From: Natranaerofaba carboxydovora
Lineage (GTDB): Bacteria; Bacillota; Natranaerobiia; Natranaerobiales; Natranaerofabaceae
NCBI RefSeq assembly: GCF_022539405.1
Contig: NZ_CP054394.1
Coordinates: 1,428,501-1,492,500, forward strand
Length of the DNA: 64,000 nt
Direction: 5' to 3'
This document shows, piece after piece, positions 30,294 to 42,032 of the stretch; the stretch's first letter is position 1; every line of letters begins with the position of its first letter. Both the position numbers and the translations under genes were made by a program. Under the pieces are notes generated by a model that saw only the letters and a list, made by a program, of their open reading frames with translations, did no database searches and had not been told where the DNA came from.

Positions 30294-30376
30294 ACTTACA
30301 AATACAAGGAAGTATTTATAAGTTGGGTGAAGAAGCCTACAGTCCTCATTTAGTTTTTTGAGACGTAGGCATTTTT
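30294..30376 (+). promoter_or_regulatory. ANTAR-type antitermination element, copy 1 (glnB-amt leader)
   Basis: The first hairpin is AAATAC/GTATTT closed further by ACTTA/TAAGT (30294-30323), with hexaloop AAGGAA. The second hairpin is GGGT/GCCT (30325-30338) with hexaloop GAAGAA. A terminator follows: GCCTAC (30335-30340) pairs with GTAGGC (30365-30370) and a U-tract follows. The second hairpin's 3' arm is the terminator's 5' arm, so the two cannot coexist. This is the architecture bound by ANTAR regulators. The second loop has the expected G at position 4 but not A at position 1. Confidence 0.75.
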
Positions 30377-30422
30377 AATTTTGGCAAATTATAAAATACT
30401 CATTACAATTTTATTATCTAAC

Positions 30423-30499
30423 GATACGAGGAAGTATTAACCGGGCAAAGAGGCCTATATATTCTCTTTTTTGACAAGAGAATATATAGGCCTTTTTTT
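30423..30499 (+). promoter_or_regulatory. ANTAR-type antitermination element, copy 2 (glnB-amt leader)
   Basis: The first hairpin is ATAC/GTAT with loop GAGGAA (30423-30438). The second hairpin is GGGC/GCCT with loop AAAGAG (30443-30456), which has A1 and G4. The terminator is a perfect 15-bp stem, 30452-30466 with 30478-30492, followed by seven U residues. It overlaps the second hairpin by five bases. It is 40 bases before the glnB start. Two attenuators in series should tighten the off state. Confidence 0.85.
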
Positions 30500-30525
30500 A
30501 TAAAAAATTTTAATTATAAAAATAG

Positions 30526-32217: not shown

Positions 32218-33876
32218 TTATTTCGCCGCAATAGGCATTCTTCTTCCCGAACCAAAAGCTTTAGAAGTAATTTTTAGCCCGGGAGGAGCTTGCTGTCTTT
32301 TATATTCATTTTTATCAACCATTTTTATAATATTTTTCACCAAAGTCAAATCTATGTTTAACTGCCTAGCTATTTCTGAAGGTGAACTTTGAAGAGTTAT
32401 ATGATAATATAATATATTGTCTAATAGATCATAAGGCGGCAGACTGTCTTCATCTTTTTGGTCTGGCTTTAATTCTGCTGATGGTGCTTTATTAATAATA
32501 TTATTTGGGATTATTTCTTTATCCTTATTTATATAATTTGCAAGTTGGTAAACCATTGTTTTTGGAACATCTGAAAGAACTCCAAGTCCCCCACTCATAT
32601 CTCCATACAGAGTACAGTAACCTACCGCAAGCTCACTTTTATTACCTGTTGTAAGAAGCAAATGCCCAAATTTATTAGATATAGCCATTAATATATTACC
32701 TCTTATTCTTGCCTGAATATTTTCTTCAGCCACATTATCTTCTGTACCTTCAAAAATATGTGAGAGTGAATTAAGAAAGGTGTCATAAATTTCATTAATA
32801 TTAATCACTTCAAAATTTATCTCTAGCTTTTTCGCTAATTCTTCAGAATCAACCCAGCTTTCTTTTGAAGAATAAGGCCCAGGCATGTAGACTGCCATAA
32901 CATTTTCCCTGCCGAGGGCTCTTTTGGCCATAGCGCATGTTACAGCTGAATCTATCCCTCCAGAAAGACCTATTAAAGCTTTTTTAAAACCGCATTTTTT
33001 AAAATAATCCTCTATTCCAAGCAGCAGTGCATCATGTAAATTTTTAACCTTTATGCTTTCTACCGTATCTTTCTTAGAATAATCGGACATTTTTTGGTAT
33101 TTATTTTCTTCTATATCAATTGTAGTTATATTTTCTTCAAAGGCTGGTAGTTCCATCACATAGTTATTTAAATTAATAAATAGACTTTGGCCATCAAAAA
33201 TTAGCTCGTCATTCCCTCCTACCTGGTTAACAAAAATAAACATAGAATCGTGCCTTGACACATGGCTTTGAATTATCTTTTTTCTTAAATTTTCTTTGTC
33301 TAAATAATAAGGTGATGCTGAAATGTTTATAAACAAGTCAGCCCCTTTTTTACTTAGTTCTTCTATAGGATCTATCTGGTACTTGTTCTCCGTCCACAGC
33401 TGGTAATCGTTCCACATATCTTCGCAGATATTTATACCTATTTTATGACCTTTAAATGTTACGGGCTTGATTTCTTCTGCTTCTTTAAAATAACGCTTTT
33501 CATCAAATACATCATAAGTTGGTAATAGCTTTTTGTTATATCTAAAAATCTCCTTACCATTTGATATTAATAATGCCGAATTATATAGTTTGTTTCCTAC
33601 TCTTTCGCTAGAAAGTATAGGAGTACCAAACAATATTCCTAAATCAGGGTAGTTTTTAGACAATCTCTTTACTTCTTCTATATATTCGTTTATTTTTTCA
33701 ATAAACCAACCTTTTTCCAGAAGATCTTTTGGGGGGTAACCAGTTAAAAATAACTCTGGGAAAATCATTAAATCCGTTGATTTTGTAGTATCACTTTTTA
33801 ATGCTTTTTCTATCTTTTCATAATTTCCTTTAATATCACCTATAAAAGGGTTAAGCTGACAAATAGTAATTTTCAT
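32218..33876 (-). CDS. nadE: Glutamine-dependent NAD+ synthetase
   Basis: This two-domain enzyme of 552 residues makes NAD+ from deamido-NAD+, ATP and glutamine. The N-terminal nitrilase-type glutaminase domain (1-260) has the Glu-Lys-Cys set in FPELFLTGYPPK, YNKKLLPTYDVFDE and GINICEDMWND. The C-terminal synthetase domain has the PP-loop ALIGLSGGIDSAVT and later GNKSELAVGYCTLYGDMSGG. The longest frame reaches 33990 and would translate through a terminator. The ATG at 33876 has GGAG nine bases upstream and gives the canonical MKITICQLNP. The leader carries an ANTAR-type attenuator, tying NAD synthesis to nitrogen control. Confidence 0.95.
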   Translation of the reverse strand: MKITICQLNPFIGDIKGNYEKIEKALKSDTTKSTDLMIFPELFLTGYPPKDLLEKGWFIEKINEYIEEVKRLSKNYPDLGILFGTPILSSERVGNKLYNSALLISNGKEIFRYNKKLLPTYDVFDEKRYFKEAEEIKPVTFKGHKIGINICEDMWNDYQLWTENKYQIDPIEELSKKGADLFINISASPYYLDKENLRKKIIQSHVSRHDSMFIFVNQVGGNDELIFDGQSLFINLNNYVMELPAFEENITTIDIEENKYQKMSDYSKKDTVESIKVKNLHDALLLGIEDYFKKCGFKKALIGLSGGIDSAVTCAMAKRALGRENVMAVYMPGPYSSKESWVDSEELAKKLEINFEVININEIYDTFLNSLSHIFEGTEDNVAEENIQARIRGNILMAISNKFGHLLLTTGNKSELAVGYCTLYGDMSGGLGVLSDVPKTMVYQLANYINKDKEIIPNNIINKAPSAELKPDQKDEDSLPPYDLLDNILYYHITLQSSPSEIARQLNIDLTLVKNIIKMVDKNEYKRQQAPPGLKITSKAFGSGRRMPIAAK

Positions 33877-33904: not shown

Positions 33905-33990
33905 TAGTAAAATAATAAAGGCCTGTAAATCTCTTTAATTATAAAGAGATTATACAGGCCTCTTTGCCCTCTAATATCAAAATACATCAT
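33905..33990 (-). promoter_or_regulatory. ANTAR-type antitermination element in the nadE leader
   Basis: On the minus strand GGGC, hexaloop AAAGAG and GCCT (33956-33969) form the same hairpin as glnB copy 2. A terminator follows (GGCC-anchored stem, 33920-33936 with 33943-33960, one bulge, then a U-rich tail) and shares five bases with it. Just upstream of the hairpin is TTGATATTAGA, nearly the same as TTGATTAGA at the same place before glnA. The first hairpin of the pair is not clear: GATGT/ATATT with loop ATTTTG is possible but lacks G4. Confidence 0.78.
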
Positions 33991-34008
33991 CGCACCTTGA
34001 GTACCTTA

Positions 34009-34037
34009 AGTTTAATCCATAAGACAAAAATTGTCAA
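34009..34037 (-). promoter_or_regulatory. Promoter of nadE
   Basis: On the minus strand TTGACA (34032-34037), a 17-base spacer and TAAACT (34009-34014). The predicted transcript starts near 34002, just before the attenuator. Confidence 0.65.
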
Positions 34038-34050
34038 GGAATTCTCATTT

Positions 34051-35961
34051 TTATTTTTTTATCTTTATTTTACCTGACTCTTTACTATTCTTTATTGGTT
34101 TTTTTCCTTCAACAAAATTTTTATGCCAGATCATGAAAGTTATTATAGTCCATAGCTTCCTGCTGTAGTCATGGGGACCTTTCCGGTGTGAATTTAATAA
34201 TTTTAATACCTCATTTTTATTAAACAAATAATCGGTACCACTTTCCTTAATCAGGTCTCTTGCCCATTCATACATCGTATCCTTTAGCCAATATCTTATA
34301 GGTACTGGAAAGCCTAATTTTTTCCGGTATAATATTGATTTTGGTATCACATCTTCCACAGCTTTTCTGAGTGCATACTTTGTTGTCTGATCAGTTACTT
34401 TCCATTCTGGCGGAATCATTGAAGCAATTTCAAAAACCTTTTTGTCAAGGAAAGGTACTCTAAGTTCAAGAGAATGAGCCATAGTCATTCTGTCGGCTTT
34501 TACTAGTATGTCACCTGAAAGCCATGTTTTCAGATCTACGTACTGCATTTTGGCTAATTCATCAAAAGCAGTTATTTCCTTATAGATAGGCGCTGTTATG
34601 TCATAGTAAGAGATTTCCCGGTTATATCTTTTATAAACTCTATGTTTTACATCTTCTCTAAATATCCTCGCATTTCCGTAGTACCTTTTTTCAAGAGGAG
34701 TTGCTCCTCTTCTTATAAAATCTTTTCCCTTAGTACCTTCAGGCAAAACCTTTGATAAATAAAACAAGCTTCTTTTAACAGGTCCGGGAAAGTTATTAAA
34801 AATACTTAAATCTCTAGGCTCACGGTATATATTATACCCTCCAAAAAGCTCATCTGCTCCTTCACCTGAGAGTACAACTTTTACATGTTTTGAAGCTTCC
34901 TTACTTACATAATATAAAGGAACTGCAGCAGGATCAGCAACCGGATCATCCATGTGCCAGATTATTTCAGGCAAATCTTCCATTACCTCTTCGGCTGTGA
35001 CAAGTTTTGTATAGTGTTCCACTCCTAATTCTTCTGCAGTCTCTTTTGCAATATCAGCTTCATTATAAAACTGGCTCTCAAATCCACTGGTAAAAGTTTT
35101 TATCTTAGGATGAAATTTTTTGGCTAATGCAACTATTGCAGTTGAATCAATCCCGCTTGAAAGAAAAGCACCCACAGGAACGTCACTTCTCATGTGTATT
35201 TTTACTGAATCTAAAATTTTTTCTTTAATCAGGTCAAACAATTTTTTTTCATCACTTAAAAAACTGTCATTAGGCCTAAAACTAGGGGTAAAATATCTAT
35301 TAAAAGAGAGCTTTATATCATTTCTTTCAGGACAAAAAGAAAAAGAATTTCCTGGTGGTACTTTTTTAATATCTCTATATATTGTGCTAGGCTCTGGAGG
35401 ATATTGAAAAGTTAAATAATGCTGGAGGGTAGTCGTATCTACTGGGTTTACTTTACTATCATAAAGGTCAAGTAGAGCCTTCTTTTCTGATGAAAATAAT
35501 ATACCATTATTAGTCTTTAAATAATATAGGGGTTTAATTCCAAAAGGGTCTCTTGCTCCAAAAAGTTTTTTCTCTTTTTTATCCCAGATTAAAAAAGAAT
35601 ACATCCCTCTTAATTTTTCAATCATTTTATCTCCAATTTCACTATAAAGAGCAAGGACAACTTCCGTATCTGATTCTGTTTTTAATTCTGGATTTTTTAG
35701 TAATTTTTTCAATTCAAGATAGTTATATATCTCTCCATTTAGAACAATCCAATATCTTTGATTCTGATAAGAAAGAGGTTGATTTCCTTTTTCAATGTCG
35801 ATGATACTTAGCCTTTTAAATGCAAAAGTAACATAGTCATCACTATAAAAGCCAGAACTGTCAGGCCCTCTATGGACTAGCATATCAGATGCATTTAATA
35901 TTTTTCTATTAATTAATCCATTTTGATTATCTACTGTCACATAACCAATAAAACCACACAT
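34051..35961 (-). CDS. asnB: Asparagine synthetase, glutamine-hydrolysing (copy 1)
   Basis: This enzyme of 636 residues starts MCGFIGYV; the catalytic N-terminal Cys2 is exposed after Met removal. The glutaminase domain (1-215) has LVHRGPDSSGFY and VLNGEIYNYLEL. The synthetase domain has the PP-loop AFLSSGIDSTAIVAL and VVLSGEGADELFGGY. It converts aspartate and glutamine to asparagine, or amidates a related substrate. The frame extends six residues further, but only the ATG at 35961 places Cys at position 2, and AAAGGA is 9 bases before it. It is divergent from a second asnB. The two are clearly different paralogs, not a recent duplication. Confidence 0.92.
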   Translation of the reverse strand: MCGFIGYVTVDNQNGLINRKILNASDMLVHRGPDSSGFYSDDYVTFAFKRLSIIDIEKGNQPLSYQNQRYWIVLNGEIYNYLELKKLLKNPELKTESDTEVVLALYSEIGDKMIEKLRGMYSFLIWDKKEKKLFGARDPFGIKPLYYLKTNNGILFSSEKKALLDLYDSKVNPVDTTTLQHYLTFQYPPEPSTIYRDIKKVPPGNSFSFCPERNDIKLSFNRYFTPSFRPNDSFLSDEKKLFDLIKEKILDSVKIHMRSDVPVGAFLSSGIDSTAIVALAKKFHPKIKTFTSGFESQFYNEADIAKETAEELGVEHYTKLVTAEEVMEDLPEIIWHMDDPVADPAAVPLYYVSKEASKHVKVVLSGEGADELFGGYNIYREPRDLSIFNNFPGPVKRSLFYLSKVLPEGTKGKDFIRRGATPLEKRYYGNARIFREDVKHRVYKRYNREISYYDITAPIYKEITAFDELAKMQYVDLKTWLSGDILVKADRMTMAHSLELRVPFLDKKVFEIASMIPPEWKVTDQTTKYALRKAVEDVIPKSILYRKKLGFPVPIRYWLKDTMYEWARDLIKESGTDYLFNKNEVLKLLNSHRKGPHDYSRKLWTIITFMIWHKNFVEGKKPIKNSKESGKIKIKK

Positions 35962-36149
35962 AACATCTATTCCTTTCAAATTGCTTTTAGGTTTAATATT
36001 TGTTTAATTTAGCTCGCTTATTATATTACGTAACAAACCCTGAATCTGTTAAAATTTTATATCTTTTTCACAAGACAGCAGTTAGATGAATAGAATTTAT
36101 AAGCAAGAACAACGAACGATAGTCTAATTAATGTTAGGAGTGTTCGCTT

Positions 36150-38003
36150 ATGTGTGGTATTGTTGGCTGGCTTTATCCCGGAAAAGATATGTCAGAAGAA
36201 AAAAAAGAAATTAAAAAAATGACAGGCAGGTTAATGAAGCGGGGGCCTGATGATTTTAATATTTGGTCAAATCAAAATATCGCTTTCGGTCACACAAGGT
36301 TAGAAGTGGTTGATCCTGAGTTTGGAAAACAGCCTATGACAAAAAAAGAAAAAGATTCTACCTACACTATAGTTTATAACGGTGAGCTGTATAATACAGA
36401 GGAAATTAGAAGAAAGCTTAAAAACAAGGGCTATAAATTTAATTCCCATTCAGATACCGAAGTCCTCTTAACCTCATATATAGAATGGGAAGAAGAATGT
36501 CTTGAAATACTTAATGGTATATTTGCTTTTGCCATCTGGCATGAAAGAAAAAAGAGATTATTTTTAGCTAGAGACAGATTGGGTGTCAAGCCATTATTTT
36601 ATTCTAATAAGAATAATTCCTTTTTCTTTGCATCAGAACCAAAGGCCTTATTAGAAAATAGACTGATAGATACTAGTGTTGATTTAGAAGGTTTAAGAGA
36701 TGTTTTTGCCCTTAGTCCGTCTAGGACACCCGGATGTGGGATATTCGAAGAATTAGATGAATTAAGGCCCGCACACGCCATGATATGTAATCTAAATAAA
36801 GAAATTAAAATGTGGAGATATTGGCAGGTAAAAAGTAAGCCTCACAACAAAAGTATCAAAGATACCGCACTGGACTTACATGATCTCCTTCAAGATACAG
36901 TAAGAAGACAACTTGTGGCTGACGTTCCTGTATGTACATTCTTATCTGGAGGAATTGATTCTAGTATTTTAACAGCCTTTACAGCTGAGGCATTTGAAAG
37001 AGATAACAAAAACGCCTTAAAAACTTATTCAATTGATTACGAAAATAATGATAAATATTTTACAAAAAATAGTTTTCAACCAGAAGGTGATATGCCCTGG
37101 ATTCGATTAGTCTCAGAAACTTTTGGTACAAAACACAAAAACAAAATAATATCAATAAATGAACTTACGAATTATCTAAAAAGAGCTGTATATGCAAGGG
37201 ATATGCCAGGAATGGCAGATATTGACTCCTCTCTATTGTGGTTTTGCGAAAAGGTAAAAAAAGATGCTACAGTTGCCCTCTCTGGTGAGTGTGCCGACGA
37301 GATATTTGGCGGCTACCCCTGGTTTTATAAAGAGGAACTTATGAATAGGCCTTATTTTCCGTGGATGGATTCTATAAAAGATAGAGAATATCTTCTTAAT
37401 AATAAGTGGAAAGAAAAATTAAAACTTGAGGAATATATACGTACTAAATACAACGAAACTTTAAAGGAAACACCTTATCTTGATGGAGAAAATAAAGCAG
37501 CTGATAAAAGACGTGAGATCTCATATTTGAATATAATATGGTTTATGACCACATTACTAGATAGAAAAGACCGTATGAGTATGGATGCTAGTTTAGAAGT
37601 GAGGGTTCCCTTCGCTGATCACAGGTTGGTGGAGTATGTTTGGAACATACCCTGGGAGATGAAACAAAAAGACGATACAGAAAAGTGGATTTTAAGAAAA
37701 GCCACGGAAGACGTATTACCCCACAAAGTCTTATATCGCAAAAAAAATCCTTACCCTAAGACCCATAACCCAATATACAAAAATATAGTTGCTTCCTGGG
37801 TTGATAATGAAGTACTCCAGGATAAAAACGCCCCAATTTTAGAATTCATGGACAAAAATAACATCAAAGAGCTGGTCACTTCAAAAGGAGATTCTATGAA
37901 GACGCCGTTTTTTGGTCAATTGATGAGTGGTCCTCAACTGCTTGCCCATTTGGGCCAAGTTAACACCTGGCTTAAAGATTATAATATTACTATTAAAAAA
38001 TAG
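36150..38003 (+). CDS. asnB: Asparagine synthetase, glutamine-hydrolysing (copy 2)
   Basis: This enzyme of 617 residues begins MCGIVGWLYPG with Cys2. It has RLMKRGPDDFNIW, IVYNGELYNTEE, the PP-loop TFLSGGIDSSILTAF and VALSGECADEIFGGYPW. The later half (EGDMPWIRLVSETFGTKH) differs much from copy 1, so the pair are distant paralogs. The ATG has TTAGGAG nine bases upstream. That ribosome site lies between CGAAC (36113-36117) and GTTCG (36142-36146), which could pair. The stop codon overlaps the first base of an inverted-repeat element. Confidence 0.92.
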   Translation: MCGIVGWLYPGKDMSEEKKEIKKMTGRLMKRGPDDFNIWSNQNIAFGHTRLEVVDPEFGKQPMTKKEKDSTYTIVYNGELYNTEEIRRKLKNKGYKFNSHSDTEVLLTSYIEWEEECLEILNGIFAFAIWHERKKRLFLARDRLGVKPLFYSNKNNSFFFASEPKALLENRLIDTSVDLEGLRDVFALSPSRTPGCGIFEELDELRPAHAMICNLNKEIKMWRYWQVKSKPHNKSIKDTALDLHDLLQDTVRRQLVADVPVCTFLSGGIDSSILTAFTAEAFERDNKNALKTYSIDYENNDKYFTKNSFQPEGDMPWIRLVSETFGTKHKNKIISINELTNYLKRAVYARDMPGMADIDSSLLWFCEKVKKDATVALSGECADEIFGGYPWFYKEELMNRPYFPWMDSIKDREYLLNNKWKEKLKLEEYIRTKYNETLKETPYLDGENKAADKRREISYLNIIWFMTTLLDRKDRMSMDASLEVRVPFADHRLVEYVWNIPWEMKQKDDTEKWILRKATEDVLPHKVLYRKKNPYPKTHNPIYKNIVASWVDNEVLQDKNAPILEFMDKNNIKELVTSKGDSMKTPFFGQLMSGPQLLAHLGQVNTWLKDYNITIKK

Positions 38004-38191: not shown

Positions 38192-38959
38192 TTAACTTAC
38201 ATACAATCTGCCATATGGTCTGGTACTTACCGGCTCTAATTTAATAAACTCACTGTCTATAAGTTTATTTAGGTCTTTATCAAAGTAATTACAAAAGGTT
38301 TCTATATTATCTTTTAATATCTTTTTGTCTTTGTCATTTAATTCTATTTTGGAAACTTCTTTTCCAAGTTGGTCTTCATCTACATGCCCCCTGATATAAA
38401 TCGTGCCACCATGCATACCTGTACCAACATAATCTCCAACAGGACTCTTATCCTGAGGGGTGTTTAGCCCTAATACAATGAGAACTCCACCGGCCATATA
38501 TTCACCCAAAAAATCTCCCGTATTTTCACCGACTACAAGTACAGGTATCTTATCTTTATAAGCCTTCATATGAATACCCACTCTGTATCCTGCCTGTTCA
38601 CGAATAAAAATTTTCCCGCCTCGCATGGCAATTCCCGGTGTGTCTGAAACATGGCCGTAGATAATAATTTCACCATCATTCATTGTATTTCCAACCATAT
38701 CCTGAGCATTATCAAAAACTTCAAATTTCGGCCCATCACACATAGCTGCTAGATTATTACCCGGCACTCCATTTATTTTGATATTTATATTTCCCTCTAG
38801 ACCTGCACCAATATATCTTTGCCCAAAAATATTTTTAAGCTCAATATTCTGTTTATTTACTTCCTTTACAGCTTTTCGTATCTCCACGTTAAGATCTTTA
38901 TAATTTTTATCTTTCCCACAAATCAACATAGACTTTTCTGAAGTCAAATTGTTACTCAT
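38192..38959 (-). CDS. Glutamate synthase GXGXG-domain protein (alpha C-terminal domain, separate subunit)
   Basis: This protein of 255 residues corresponds to the last domain of the large subunit of bacterial glutamate synthase, a right-handed beta-helix built of GXGXG repeats. Visible turns include GIAMRGGKIFIREQAGYRVG, TGDFLGEYMAGGVLIVLG and GTGMHGGTIYIRGHV. The domain is structural and joins the glutaminase and synthase active sites. It is the third gene of a split, archaeal-type glutamate synthase operon and begins five bases after the synthase gene. No small-subunit (GltD) gene follows. An inverted-repeat element lies downstream. Confidence 0.9.
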   Translation of the reverse strand: MSNNLTSEKSMLICGKDKNYKDLNVEIRKAVKEVNKQNIELKNIFGQRYIGAGLEGNINIKINGVPGNNLAAMCDGPKFEVFDNAQDMVGNTMNDGEIIIYGHVSDTPGIAMRGGKIFIREQAGYRVGIHMKAYKDKIPVLVVGENTGDFLGEYMAGGVLIVLGLNTPQDKSPVGDYVGTGMHGGTIYIRGHVDEDQLGKEVSKIELNDKDKKILKDNIETFCNYFDKDLNKLIDSEFIKLEPVSTRPYGRLYVS

Positions 38960-38964
38960 TCATT

Positions 38965-40446
38965 TCACCTCCCAGCCCCTTTTACACCAAGGGTTTCCAT
39001 GGTATAACTGTCCAAATCCAATGCTCTAAGCCTCTCTCTATTGCCTTTAAGACTTTCAATTGAGGTGATTCCCAAAGATCCAAGAAGTTCTTTCATCTCA
39101 AGGCTCCAACTTCGTAGTAAATTATAGACTCTTTCGCCACCTTCTTCAGGATCTAAACGCTTAGTAAGTTCTGGTTTTTGAGTTGCTATCCCCCAGGCAC
39201 ACTTATTAGTATGACAGCTTTCACATACAGTACAACCAAGGGCAATCAGAGCTGCGGTACCAATGCTAGCACAATCAGCACCAAGTGCTATTATTTTCAA
39301 AATATCAGCACTTGATCTAATACCTCCTGACGCTATTATAGAAGCTTTATGTCTAATTTTCTCTTCCCTTAATCGTTTGTCAATGCTTGATATGGCCAGT
39401 TCTATTGGTATTCCTACATTATCTCTTATAGTAGCAGGTGTTGCACCTGTTCCACCTTTTAGACCATCAACTGCGACAAAGTCGGCACCTGCTCTTACTA
39501 TTCCTGTTGCTATTGCCGGTGCATTATGAACTGCTGATATTTTGACTCCTACAGGTTTTTTATACTCTGTAACTTCTTTTAACAAATATATAAGATTCTC
39601 TAAGTCCTCTATAGAGTAGATATCATGATGAGGGGCCGGCGAAATAGCATCAGAACCTTCAGGTATCATTCTTGTTTTTGAAATTTCTTTGTCGATTTTT
39701 TCCCCAGGCAGATGCCCTCCAATCCCAGGTTTTGCCCCCTGGCCGATTTTTATCTCTATAGCTGCACCAGATTCTAAATATTCTTTATCAATACCAAATC
39801 TACCTGAAGCTACCTGCACAAAAGTATTAGGGCCATACTCTACCATATCAGGATGCAGCCCACCCTCACCACAGTTCATACAGGTTCCGGCTTTTCTAGC
39901 AGCATTACCTAAAGCTTTATGAACATTGAGACTTAATGCGCCAAAGCTCATCGCAGCAAATACAATAGGTGTTTCAAGCTGCAGCTGTGGCCCTATTTCA
40001 TCTGAGATATTATCTGATTTTCTACCTACAAATGTTCTAAGTTCCATAGGCTCTCTCAAAGGATCAATTGAAGGATTGGTTACCTGGCAGGCATCAAGTA
40101 GTAAGTGGTCAAAAATATTTTTGTGCGAAAGACCTGTTCCAACAGAAGTTAATAGTTTGGCACCAGTATCTGACTGCTTATGAATATCATTTTGAGTTTT
40201 ATAATCCCAATTAAAGTGAGAGTTAAATGCAATTTTGTTTTCAGAAAGTTCAATAGCATTTTGTGGGCAGGTTAAGACACAGCGCCGACAAGCTACACAA
40301 TTTTTATTGTATGCCACAATATTATTTTCTGTTTCATCAAAAGTAAAAACATCAAAGCTGCATTCCTTGGCACACCTTTTACATTTGTTGCAGTTTTCAT
40401 TTATATTTAGTTTATACTTGGGAGGAAAATTATTTGTTATCATCAT
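38965..40446 (-). CDS. Glutamate synthase FMN/synthase-domain protein with fused ferredoxin domain
   Basis: This protein of 493 residues has an N-terminal ferredoxin-like domain with two [4Fe-4S] motifs: CNKCKRCAKEC (about 19-29) and CVACRRCVLTCP (about 50-61). The FMN-binding TIM barrel follows: FAAMSFGALSL, GEGGLHPD, KIGQGAKPGIGGHLPG, ISAVHNAPA and VDGLKGGTGATP. Cysteines in CTVCESCHTNKCAWG probably hold the [3Fe-4S] cluster. It joins ammonia to 2-oxoglutarate and reduces the product to glutamate. The fused ferredoxin suggests electrons come from ferredoxin rather than NADPH. It overlaps the glutaminase gene by 17 bases; either of two adjacent ATG codons could start it. Confidence 0.93.
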   Translation of the reverse strand: MMITNNFPPKYKLNINENCNKCKRCAKECSFDVFTFDETENNIVAYNKNCVACRRCVLTCPQNAIELSENKIAFNSHFNWDYKTQNDIHKQSDTGAKLLTSVGTGLSHKNIFDHLLLDACQVTNPSIDPLREPMELRTFVGRKSDNISDEIGPQLQLETPIVFAAMSFGALSLNVHKALGNAARKAGTCMNCGEGGLHPDMVEYGPNTFVQVASGRFGIDKEYLESGAAIEIKIGQGAKPGIGGHLPGEKIDKEISKTRMIPEGSDAISPAPHHDIYSIEDLENLIYLLKEVTEYKKPVGVKISAVHNAPAIATGIVRAGADFVAVDGLKGGTGATPATIRDNVGIPIELAISSIDKRLREEKIRHKASIIASGGIRSSADILKIIALGADCASIGTAALIALGCTVCESCHTNKCAWGIATQKPELTKRLDPEEGGERVYNLLRSWSLEMKELLGSLGITSIESLKGNRERLRALDLDSYTMETLGVKGAGR

Positions 40447-41578
40447 TTAGCTCCCCTTTCAGTCTAGCACCCTGAGATATTTTTGTGCCTTTATCACCTT
40501 TTTTATCTTTATTTTTTAGAGTAGCATATAGCGGCTTACCTGCATGAGAATAAGTATATTCTTCTGGTTTTGGTTCAATTTTTCTAATAGCTGCCTCTTC
40601 AGTGGAAATATAATACCAATTGTCTTTCTGGGCTGCTATTAAGGGACGTAATTTGATTCTATCTGTTAGACCAATCATCATATCAGTATTTGCAATAATA
40701 ACTCCAAAAGGGCCATTTAATAAAAGATCTTTATAGATTATCCTAAGTTTAGTTAGATGTTCTTTTACTGAAGGCTCCATATTATCAATTTTATCCCAAA
40801 ATGGTGCAGCAAGGACTGAAGCCATATCTTTTAAGGATAAAGAATGCTTACGCATCAATAAATCAACTGCATAAGTTATAACCTCAGTGTCTGTCTCTAA
40901 CGTACAGGGATAACCTTGAGTATCTAGATATCTAGCATTCGTTCCATAAGATGATATCTCACCATTGTGGACAACACTCCAATCAAGTAAACTAAAAGGA
41001 TGAGCACCACCCCACCAGGCAGAAGTATTTGTAGGGAATCGACCATGAGCCGTCCATAAATAACCATGATACTCCTCAAGCATAAAAAACTCACCTATAT
41101 CTTCGGGATAACCCACCCCTTTAAAAACTCCCATATTCTTACCTGAAGAAGAAACAAAAGCTCCTTTAATACCCGTGTTAATTTCCATGACACGTCTAAC
41201 TACAAATTCTTCTTCATCTATTTCCTCAACTAAGTGCTCCATCGGCTTTAGAAAATAACGCCACAACATTGGAGATGTTCTTATTTTAGCGGTATTTCTT
41301 GTAGGAATTGTCTCTCCACCAACCATTACAAAATATTTCCTCAGAAACTGTTCGGTTTCAACCCTACTTGGCTCATCATCATAAATTAGATGAAAAGCAT
41401 AACAATCTTTTAGATCAGGATATATGCCATAACTAGCAAAACCTCCACCTAGTCCATTAGAACGATCATGCATCACTTCTATACAATCCATAATTTTGTT
41501 ACCTGAAAAAGACATTGCTTCAGTATTCATAATACCAGCTATAGCGCAACCTGATGGGACTTTCTGATAAAATTCCAA
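40430..41578 (-). CDS. Glutamate synthase glutaminase-domain protein (class II amidotransferase)
   Basis: This protein of 382 residues corresponds to the N-terminal glutaminase domain of glutamate synthase. The nucleophile should be Cys11 in VPSGCAIAGIMN, so a short N-terminal peptide must be removed. Other marks are GRFPTNTSAWWGGAHPFS, VVHNGEISSYGTNARYL and LETDTEVITYAVDLLM. It frees ammonia from glutamine for the synthase encoded downstream. The longest frame starts at GTG 41587, inside GAGGTGAT. The TTG at 41578, with better spacing, is preferred. First gene of the split glutamate synthase operon. Confidence 0.9.
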   Translation of the reverse strand: MEFYQKVPSGCAIAGIMNTEAMSFSGNKIMDCIEVMHDRSNGLGGGFASYGIYPDLKDCYAFHLIYDDEPSRVETEQFLRKYFVMVGGETIPTRNTAKIRTSPMLWRYFLKPMEHLVEEIDEEEFVVRRVMEINTGIKGAFVSSSGKNMGVFKGVGYPEDIGEFFMLEEYHGYLWTAHGRFPTNTSAWWGGAHPFSLLDWSVVHNGEISSYGTNARYLDTQGYPCTLETDTEVITYAVDLLMRKHSLSLKDMASVLAAPFWDKIDNMEPSVKEHLTKLRIIYKDLLLNGPFGVIIANTDMMIGLTDRIKLRPLIAAQKDNWYYISTEEAAIRKIEPKPEEYTYSHAGKPLYATLKNKDKKGDKGTKISQGARLKGELNDDNK

Positions 41579-41599
41579 TACTATCACCTCGTCTTTTTA

Positions 41600-41637
41600 C
41601 GAACGAATAATGGTGAAGCGTAAAATTATATCGTTCG
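41600..41637 (-). promoter_or_regulatory. Hairpin in the glutamate synthase leader
   Basis: On the minus strand CGAACGA pairs with TCGTTCG and, after one bulged base, ATAAT pairs with ATTAT, leaving a 13-base loop. It ends 8 bases before the ribosome site GAGGTG. The CGAACGA/TCGTTCG sequence recurs near asnB copy 2 and glnA. No hexaloop of ANTAR type is visible here. Confidence 0.5.
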
Positions 41638-41662
41638 CTTTTTAGGTGTTCTAGTTTAAAAA

Positions 41663-41844: not shown

Positions 41845-41934
41845 TTAATCAAGTAAAACCTAACAAATAAGCAAAAATTAAATAAACGTTCGTTTTTTTG
41901 GTGCAAGGGCGCACTAAGAAAACAACCCAAGTAA

Positions 41935-42032
41935 CTAAATTTAAACTAAAATTTAGCAAATAACTTGATTAGAGGGCAAAGGTGTCCTTGAAAGGTACTA
42001 GTATACTCTAACCTTTTAAGGACACTTTTTTT
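41935..42032 (+). promoter_or_regulatory. ANTAR-type antitermination element in the glnA leader
   Basis: The first hairpin is a perfect 8-bp stem, CTAAATTT/AAATTTAG, with hexaloop AAACTA (41935-41956). The second hairpin is GGGC, loop AAAGGT with A1 and G4, and GTCC (41974-41987). The terminator is 41982-41996 with 42011-42025, 15 pairs with one G-U, then seven U residues. It shares six bases with the second hairpin, so the forms exclude each other. The first loop has A1 but C at position 4. Confidence 0.82.

Follow-up and report, generated by a model that had tools for sequence, protein, structure and literature searches.

The nadE gene of Natranaerofaba carboxydovora, encoding a glutamine-dependent NAD synthetase, is preceded on the minus strand by a leader that lies between asnB (stop at 34051) and the nadE start (33876). 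This leader raises the question of whether NAD synthesis is placed under ANTAR-type transcription antitermination together with nitrogen genes, as a sequence-only reading of the region had proposed. All positions refer to the window, that is, the whole stretch of 64,000 nucleotides of contig NZ_CP054394.1 that was analyzed.

The nadE Leader

The identity of the nadE product (32218..33876, minus strand, 552 aa) was established with Pfam and NCBIfam. A nitrilase-type glutaminase (CN_hydrolase, PF00795, residues 2-260) is fused to an NAD synthase domain (NAD_synthase, PF02540, residues 284-530), and the match to NF010588 scored 681 bits against a cut-off of 479.

At the head of the leader, the promoter sequence TTGACA-N17-TAAACT, already pointed out in the sequence-only reading, was found at 34037-34009 on the minus strand. 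It is predicted from its match to the consensus and its place just 5' of the first hairpin; promoter-like matches as a class were no more frequent in the region than in shuffled sequences, and the assignment is supported mainly by position. The leader RNA would be expected to start near 34002.

The first hairpin, P1 (34000-33977, minus strand), reads UCAAGGUGC-GAUGAU-GUAUUUUGA, with nine base pairs and a six-nucleotide loop at 33991-33986; the definition applied requires P2 to be preceded by a hairpin of 3 bp or more with a hexaloop. When the RNA was folded from the predicted start, P1 was kept in the minimum free energy (MFE) structure with or without the terminator, and only 0.02% of shuffled sequences matched its score at such spacing (p = 0.0002). 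The earlier description of this hairpin as weak must therefore be corrected, while the accompanying suspicion that the first loop is unusual proved correct: position 4 is G, in agreement with the published consensus, and position 1 is G where the consensus has A.

P1 is followed by the linker UAUUAGA (33976-33970), whose 7 nt fall within the natural range of 5-12 nt given for the eut leaders of E. faecalis in PMC3369931. The second hairpin, P2 (33969-33956, minus strand), is GGGC-AAAGAG-GCCU and carries both A1 and G4 in its hexaloop. An intrinsic terminator spans 33963-33909 on the same strand; its stem (33963-33917) begins within the P2 loop, so that the two structures are mutually exclusive, and its U-rich tail extends to 33909. 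The computed MFE of the leader was -36.8 kcal/mol (z -7.6), and a strict combination of P2 and terminator arose in 0 of 5000 dinucleotide shuffles of the leader.

The G at position 1 of the P1 loop speaks against ANTAR control; in the eut system, a change of A1 reduced induction and P1 was required (PMC3369931). In the EutV-RNA structure, however, G4 is the base specifically contacted and A1 has no such contact (Walshe et al. 2022, PMC8934654), which explains tolerance of G1. G1 was also found in the P1 loop of the organism's own glnB leader and, in other genomes with ANTAR genes, in that of glnA, nifH, ANTAR and nadE leaders. Because A1 is replaced in P1, the nadE leader is regarded as a variant rather than a canonical ANTAR target.

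Attenuators in the Same Genome

Exactly two copies of the 13-mer GGGCAAAGAGGCC are present in the genome (3.26 Mb), one in the nadE leader (within P2) and one in the glnB-amt leader (30443-30455), and a terminator overlaps each of them. The shared hairpin from which the idea of common control had started, GGGC-AAAGAG-GCCT, is thus confirmed as identical over 13 nt. The pattern read backwards, used as a control, had no occurrence in the genome.

A broader pattern (a GGGCAAWG hairpin with a T run after it) was found at six distinct places, three of which are the glnB, nadE and glnA leaders; at the remaining three, P2 is not formed or the match lies inside another gene. Sites combining the GGGCAAWG hairpin with a terminator were therefore confined, genome-wide, to the leaders of glnB-amt, nadE and glnA, all nitrogen genes, in a count obtained from pattern scans for GGGCAA-type P2 stems, which attenuators with other P2 stems could escape. 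The pattern matches L005 (coding) and L250 (inside another gene) were rejected, as were two matches without P2 pairing.

In the glnB-amt leader, the attenuator with the shared hairpin (30423..30496, plus strand) consists of P1 GATAC-GAGGAA-GTATT, P2 GGGC-AAAGAG-GCCT and the terminator. This leader (30300-30500, plus strand) appears to hold two attenuators in tandem, of which this one is the second; the first (30300-30376) comprises AAATAC-AAGGAA-GTATTT and GGGT-GAAGAA-GCCT with a terminator.

The attenuator in the leader of glnA-ANTAR-carAB (41928..42030, plus strand) is made up of an upstream hairpin with the hexaloop AAACUA, the linker AUUAGA, P2 GGGC-AAAGGU-GUCC and a terminator. The run TTGAT(A)TTAGA before P2, earlier noticed as common to the nadE and glnA leaders, was recovered in both; in their folds it comprises the linker of 6-7 nt and, before it, the 3' arm of the upstream hairpin.

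Two side observations concern neighboring nitrogen genes. A CGAACGATA-type sequence is present in the gltB-like leader (41596-41640, minus strand) and in the asnB leader (36108-36150, plus strand), followed in both by an incomplete inverted copy (GTTCG); a further shared regulator may act at this sequence. The glutamate synthase at 38192-41587 (minus strand) is divided into three separate genes, for an amidotransferase-like protein, an FMN/ferredoxin domain and a GltB C-terminal-like domain, and resembles the split form of archaeal type.

The ANTAR Regulator

The only ANTAR gene of the genome (43509..44084, plus strand) is situated downstream of glnA, between glnA and carAB. Its product keeps the RNA-contact residues R142, K143, Y164 and M172 of EutV, with K147 replaced by R.

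The receiver domain is degenerate. It scored 27.5 bits against Pfam Response_reg, below the cut-off of 30.2, and compared with the complete phospho-acceptor site of the EutV type (acidic pair, Asp, Thr/Ser, Lys) it retains the Asp, while one acidic residue is changed to Thr and the conserved Lys to Glu. Since the conserved lysine and one acidic residue are missing, activation through contact with a protein or ligand, as in AmiR, appears more likely than activation by phosphorylation. From the company of the target genes, we infer that the inducing signal would be scarcity of ammonia or glutamine.

Recurrence Before nadE in Other Genomes

Two sources, GTDB genomes and 398 genomes of the phylum, supplied 161 glutamine-type nadE genes, which were searched for P2 with an overlapping terminator at most 150 nt upstream (strict criterion). 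Seven genes had such an element, where 0.16 would be predicted from the remaining sequence of these loci, and 60 rounds of shuffled leaders produced none. The other 154 genes lack it. Its absence before most distant nadE genes agrees with a gene that can enter the regulon and drop out of it.

Besides N. carboxydovora, the strict element was found in Desulfofundulus thermosubterraneus (L124), G251, G275, G370, G382 and a metagenome assembly (L123). The leaders of G251 and G275 are of the same type as that of L124, and these three are Desulfofundulus-like genomes, so that the six represent about four other lineages. Every genome with an ANTAR-type nadE leader carried at least one ANTAR gene. Two genomes of the same order (G001 and G002) have no glutamine-type NadE, and no second genome of the same family was found among those searched.

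Genes carrying the element often adjoin nif or glnB genes, as judged from neighbor names read from translations. The order is amt-glnB-nifB-nadE in L123 and nifB-nifV-MCP-nadE in L124, and nifV and nifH adjoin nadE in G382; in G370, no nitrogen genes lie upstream. In G400 (L129), where a nifE/N-like gene, nifB and nifV accompany nadE, a weaker element lies 233 nt upstream and was left out of the strict seven. In G061, G188 and G329, nadE is divergent from an ANTAR-glnA operon, which has its own P2 leader, and nadE is without the element. In L176 (G321), whose genome has no ANTAR gene, a P2 match lay some 0.8 kb before nadE and was not counted.

The nadE leader of G382 has the full arrangement of P1, P2 and terminator, with a P1 of 8 bp whose loop carries G1 and G4. 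The leader directed toward nifH in the same genome (L188, minus strand near 506) has a dual-hexaloop attenuator of its own, with P1 TGGTGC-GTTGCA-GTACCA and the P2 loop AAAGAT, and in G382 ANTAR control may extend to both nadE and nif genes. The remaining five strict nadE leaders outside N. carboxydovora have P2 and no recognizable P1.

These five leaders favor a reading in which ANTAR control of nadE is real and operates through P2 alone, the G1-loop P1 not being recognized, and the minimal binding unit of EutV is indeed a single hexaloop (PMC8934654). For N. carboxydovora this is nevertheless considered unlikely. Its own P1 is strong and correctly spaced, G1 loops recur in the P1 of other leaders, including the hairpin retained in G382, and P1 is needed in the eut system.

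The recurrence also bears on a simpler explanation, in which the hairpin does no more than terminate transcription of asnB and plays no part in regulating nadE. The two genes are adjacent and codirectional, asnB coming first, and the strong terminator may well end asnB transcripts too. A plain terminator, however, leaves unexplained P1 and its spacing as well as the 13-mer identity with the glnB leader; a promoter-like sequence stands between asnB and the hairpins, and the element recurs in genomes where nadE is preceded by other genes. We regard this explanation as very improbable.

Hardly credible, finally, is an attenuator that answers another factor (an NAD-sensing riboswitch or other RNA-binding protein) and resembles ANTAR targets only secondarily: NAD genes can have other regulators, and a second layer of control is compatible with the data, but no Rfam family scored above threshold within the window, a permissive scan returned only eukaryotic, plastid, viral or Wolbachia families at chance level, and the motif is common to the nitrogen genes of the ANTAR cluster.

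As a side observation, many glnA, glnB and ANTAR leaders of Firmicutes likewise have a P2 hexaloop overlapping a terminator and no recognizable P1 with an A/G1-G4 hexaloop (among them L008, L037, L040, L041, L045, L057, L086, L097 and L237). In some of these, a hairpin with a different loop seems to lie upstream.

Two Types of NAD Synthetase

The genome of N. carboxydovora also encodes a second, short NadE of 257 aa, and no P2/terminator element was seen in the region upstream of its gene. As a rule within the family, the short form uses ammonia.

Each of the eight genomes in which nadE has an ANTAR-type leader (the strict seven and G400) carried both kinds of NadE, whereas a second NadE match was found in 24 of 70 other genomes with the glutamine type. 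The difference gave p = 4.5e-4 in Fisher's test, in which genomes were taken as independent and kinship was ignored, the positive side comprising about five lineages.

Discussion

By all computable tests, the nadE leader is an ANTAR-type attenuator, for which binding by the protein is predicted. The proposal of ANTAR control of nadE held at the level of sequence in its main points, namely two hexaloops, a permitted spacing, mutual exclusion of P2 and terminator and a single ANTAR protein, with the A1 of the first loop as the exception. We therefore consider it highly probable that the leader acts as an ANTAR-controlled transcription attenuator, likely serving as a switch between the ammonia-type and the glutamine-type NadE.

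According to the proposed mechanism, RNA polymerase would start near 34002, and P1 would emerge first, followed by P2. As long as no active ANTAR protein is present, the longer terminator would take up the 3' arm of P2 by pairing, and transcription would end before nadE. The active protein would be recruited by the P1 hexaloop and would hold the P2 hexaloop, blocking the terminator, so that nadE would be transcribed together with glnB-amt and glnA-ANTAR-carAB. The short NadE would then serve when ammonium is plentiful, and the glutamine-dependent enzyme would be induced when ammonia becomes scarce.

The mechanism itself is known in kind. Ramesh et al. (2012, PMC3369931) describe ANTAR dual-hexaloop attenuators for eut/EutV, nasF/NasR and amiE/AmiR, and the nadE leader resembles them in having two short hexaloop hairpins, the second overlapping an intrinsic terminator, a permitted linker, an ANTAR protein in the genome and nitrogen-related company. 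It differs from them in the NAD synthetase target, in a first loop that departs from the published definition by G in place of A, and in a regulator with a degenerate receiver encoded beside glnA.

The same paper predicts ANTAR regulons in Desulfotomaculum and other anaerobes, with leaders of PII, ammonium transporter, glutamine/glutamate synthetase and nitrogenase genes, which the present case resembles in concerning leaders of nitrogen genes. NAD synthesis is not mentioned in its main text, and a nadE entry may be contained in its supplementary tables. The open literature on ANTAR together with NAD synthetase or nadE yielded nothing relevant, so nadE appears to be undescribed as an ANTAR target, in line with the sequence-only reading, which named nitrate, ethanolamine and glutamine genes as the known cases of such control.

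A connection of NadE with nitrogen status has been established at another level. The PII protein controls glutamine-dependent NadE (Santos et al. 2020, PMC7196632), and in that system, as here, NAD synthesis is tied to nitrogen status and glnB and nadE are neighbors; control is exerted there on the activity of the enzyme protein, and here on transcription. In Frankia, the glutamine-dependent NAD synthetase is needed for N2 fixation, as stated in the abstract of PMC10037102, so that the glutamine-type enzyme matters there too under nitrogen depletion; unlike the present organism, Frankia is an actinobacterium, and that abstract describes no ANTAR leader. Given the control of NadE by PII and the need for the glutamine type in N2 fixation, a link between ANTAR and nadE makes biological sense.

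It is possible, and is put forward tentatively, that ANTAR nitrogen regulons of anaerobic Firmicutes repeatedly include induction of the glutamine-dependent NadE, and that several lineages achieve it through a single hexaloop (P2 only), in which case the recruitment hairpin would not always be needed. The single-hexaloop motif recognized by EutV is relevant to such P2-only nadE leaders, and antitermination by one hexaloop alone was left as an open question by the authors of that work (PMC8934654). The leaders found here make it testable whether a single hexaloop supports antitermination.

Little is known of how bacteria adjust NAD synthesis to their nitrogen supply. The nadE leader offers a concrete transcriptional route, parallel to the known contact of PII with NadE, and would extend the known ANTAR targets to a gene of cofactor synthesis. 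It also leads to a simple hypothesis, with the ammonia-type NadE for plenty and the glutamine-type NadE for scarcity. Its recurrence in unrelated bacteria suggests that a second NAD enzyme is turned on when ammonia is short.
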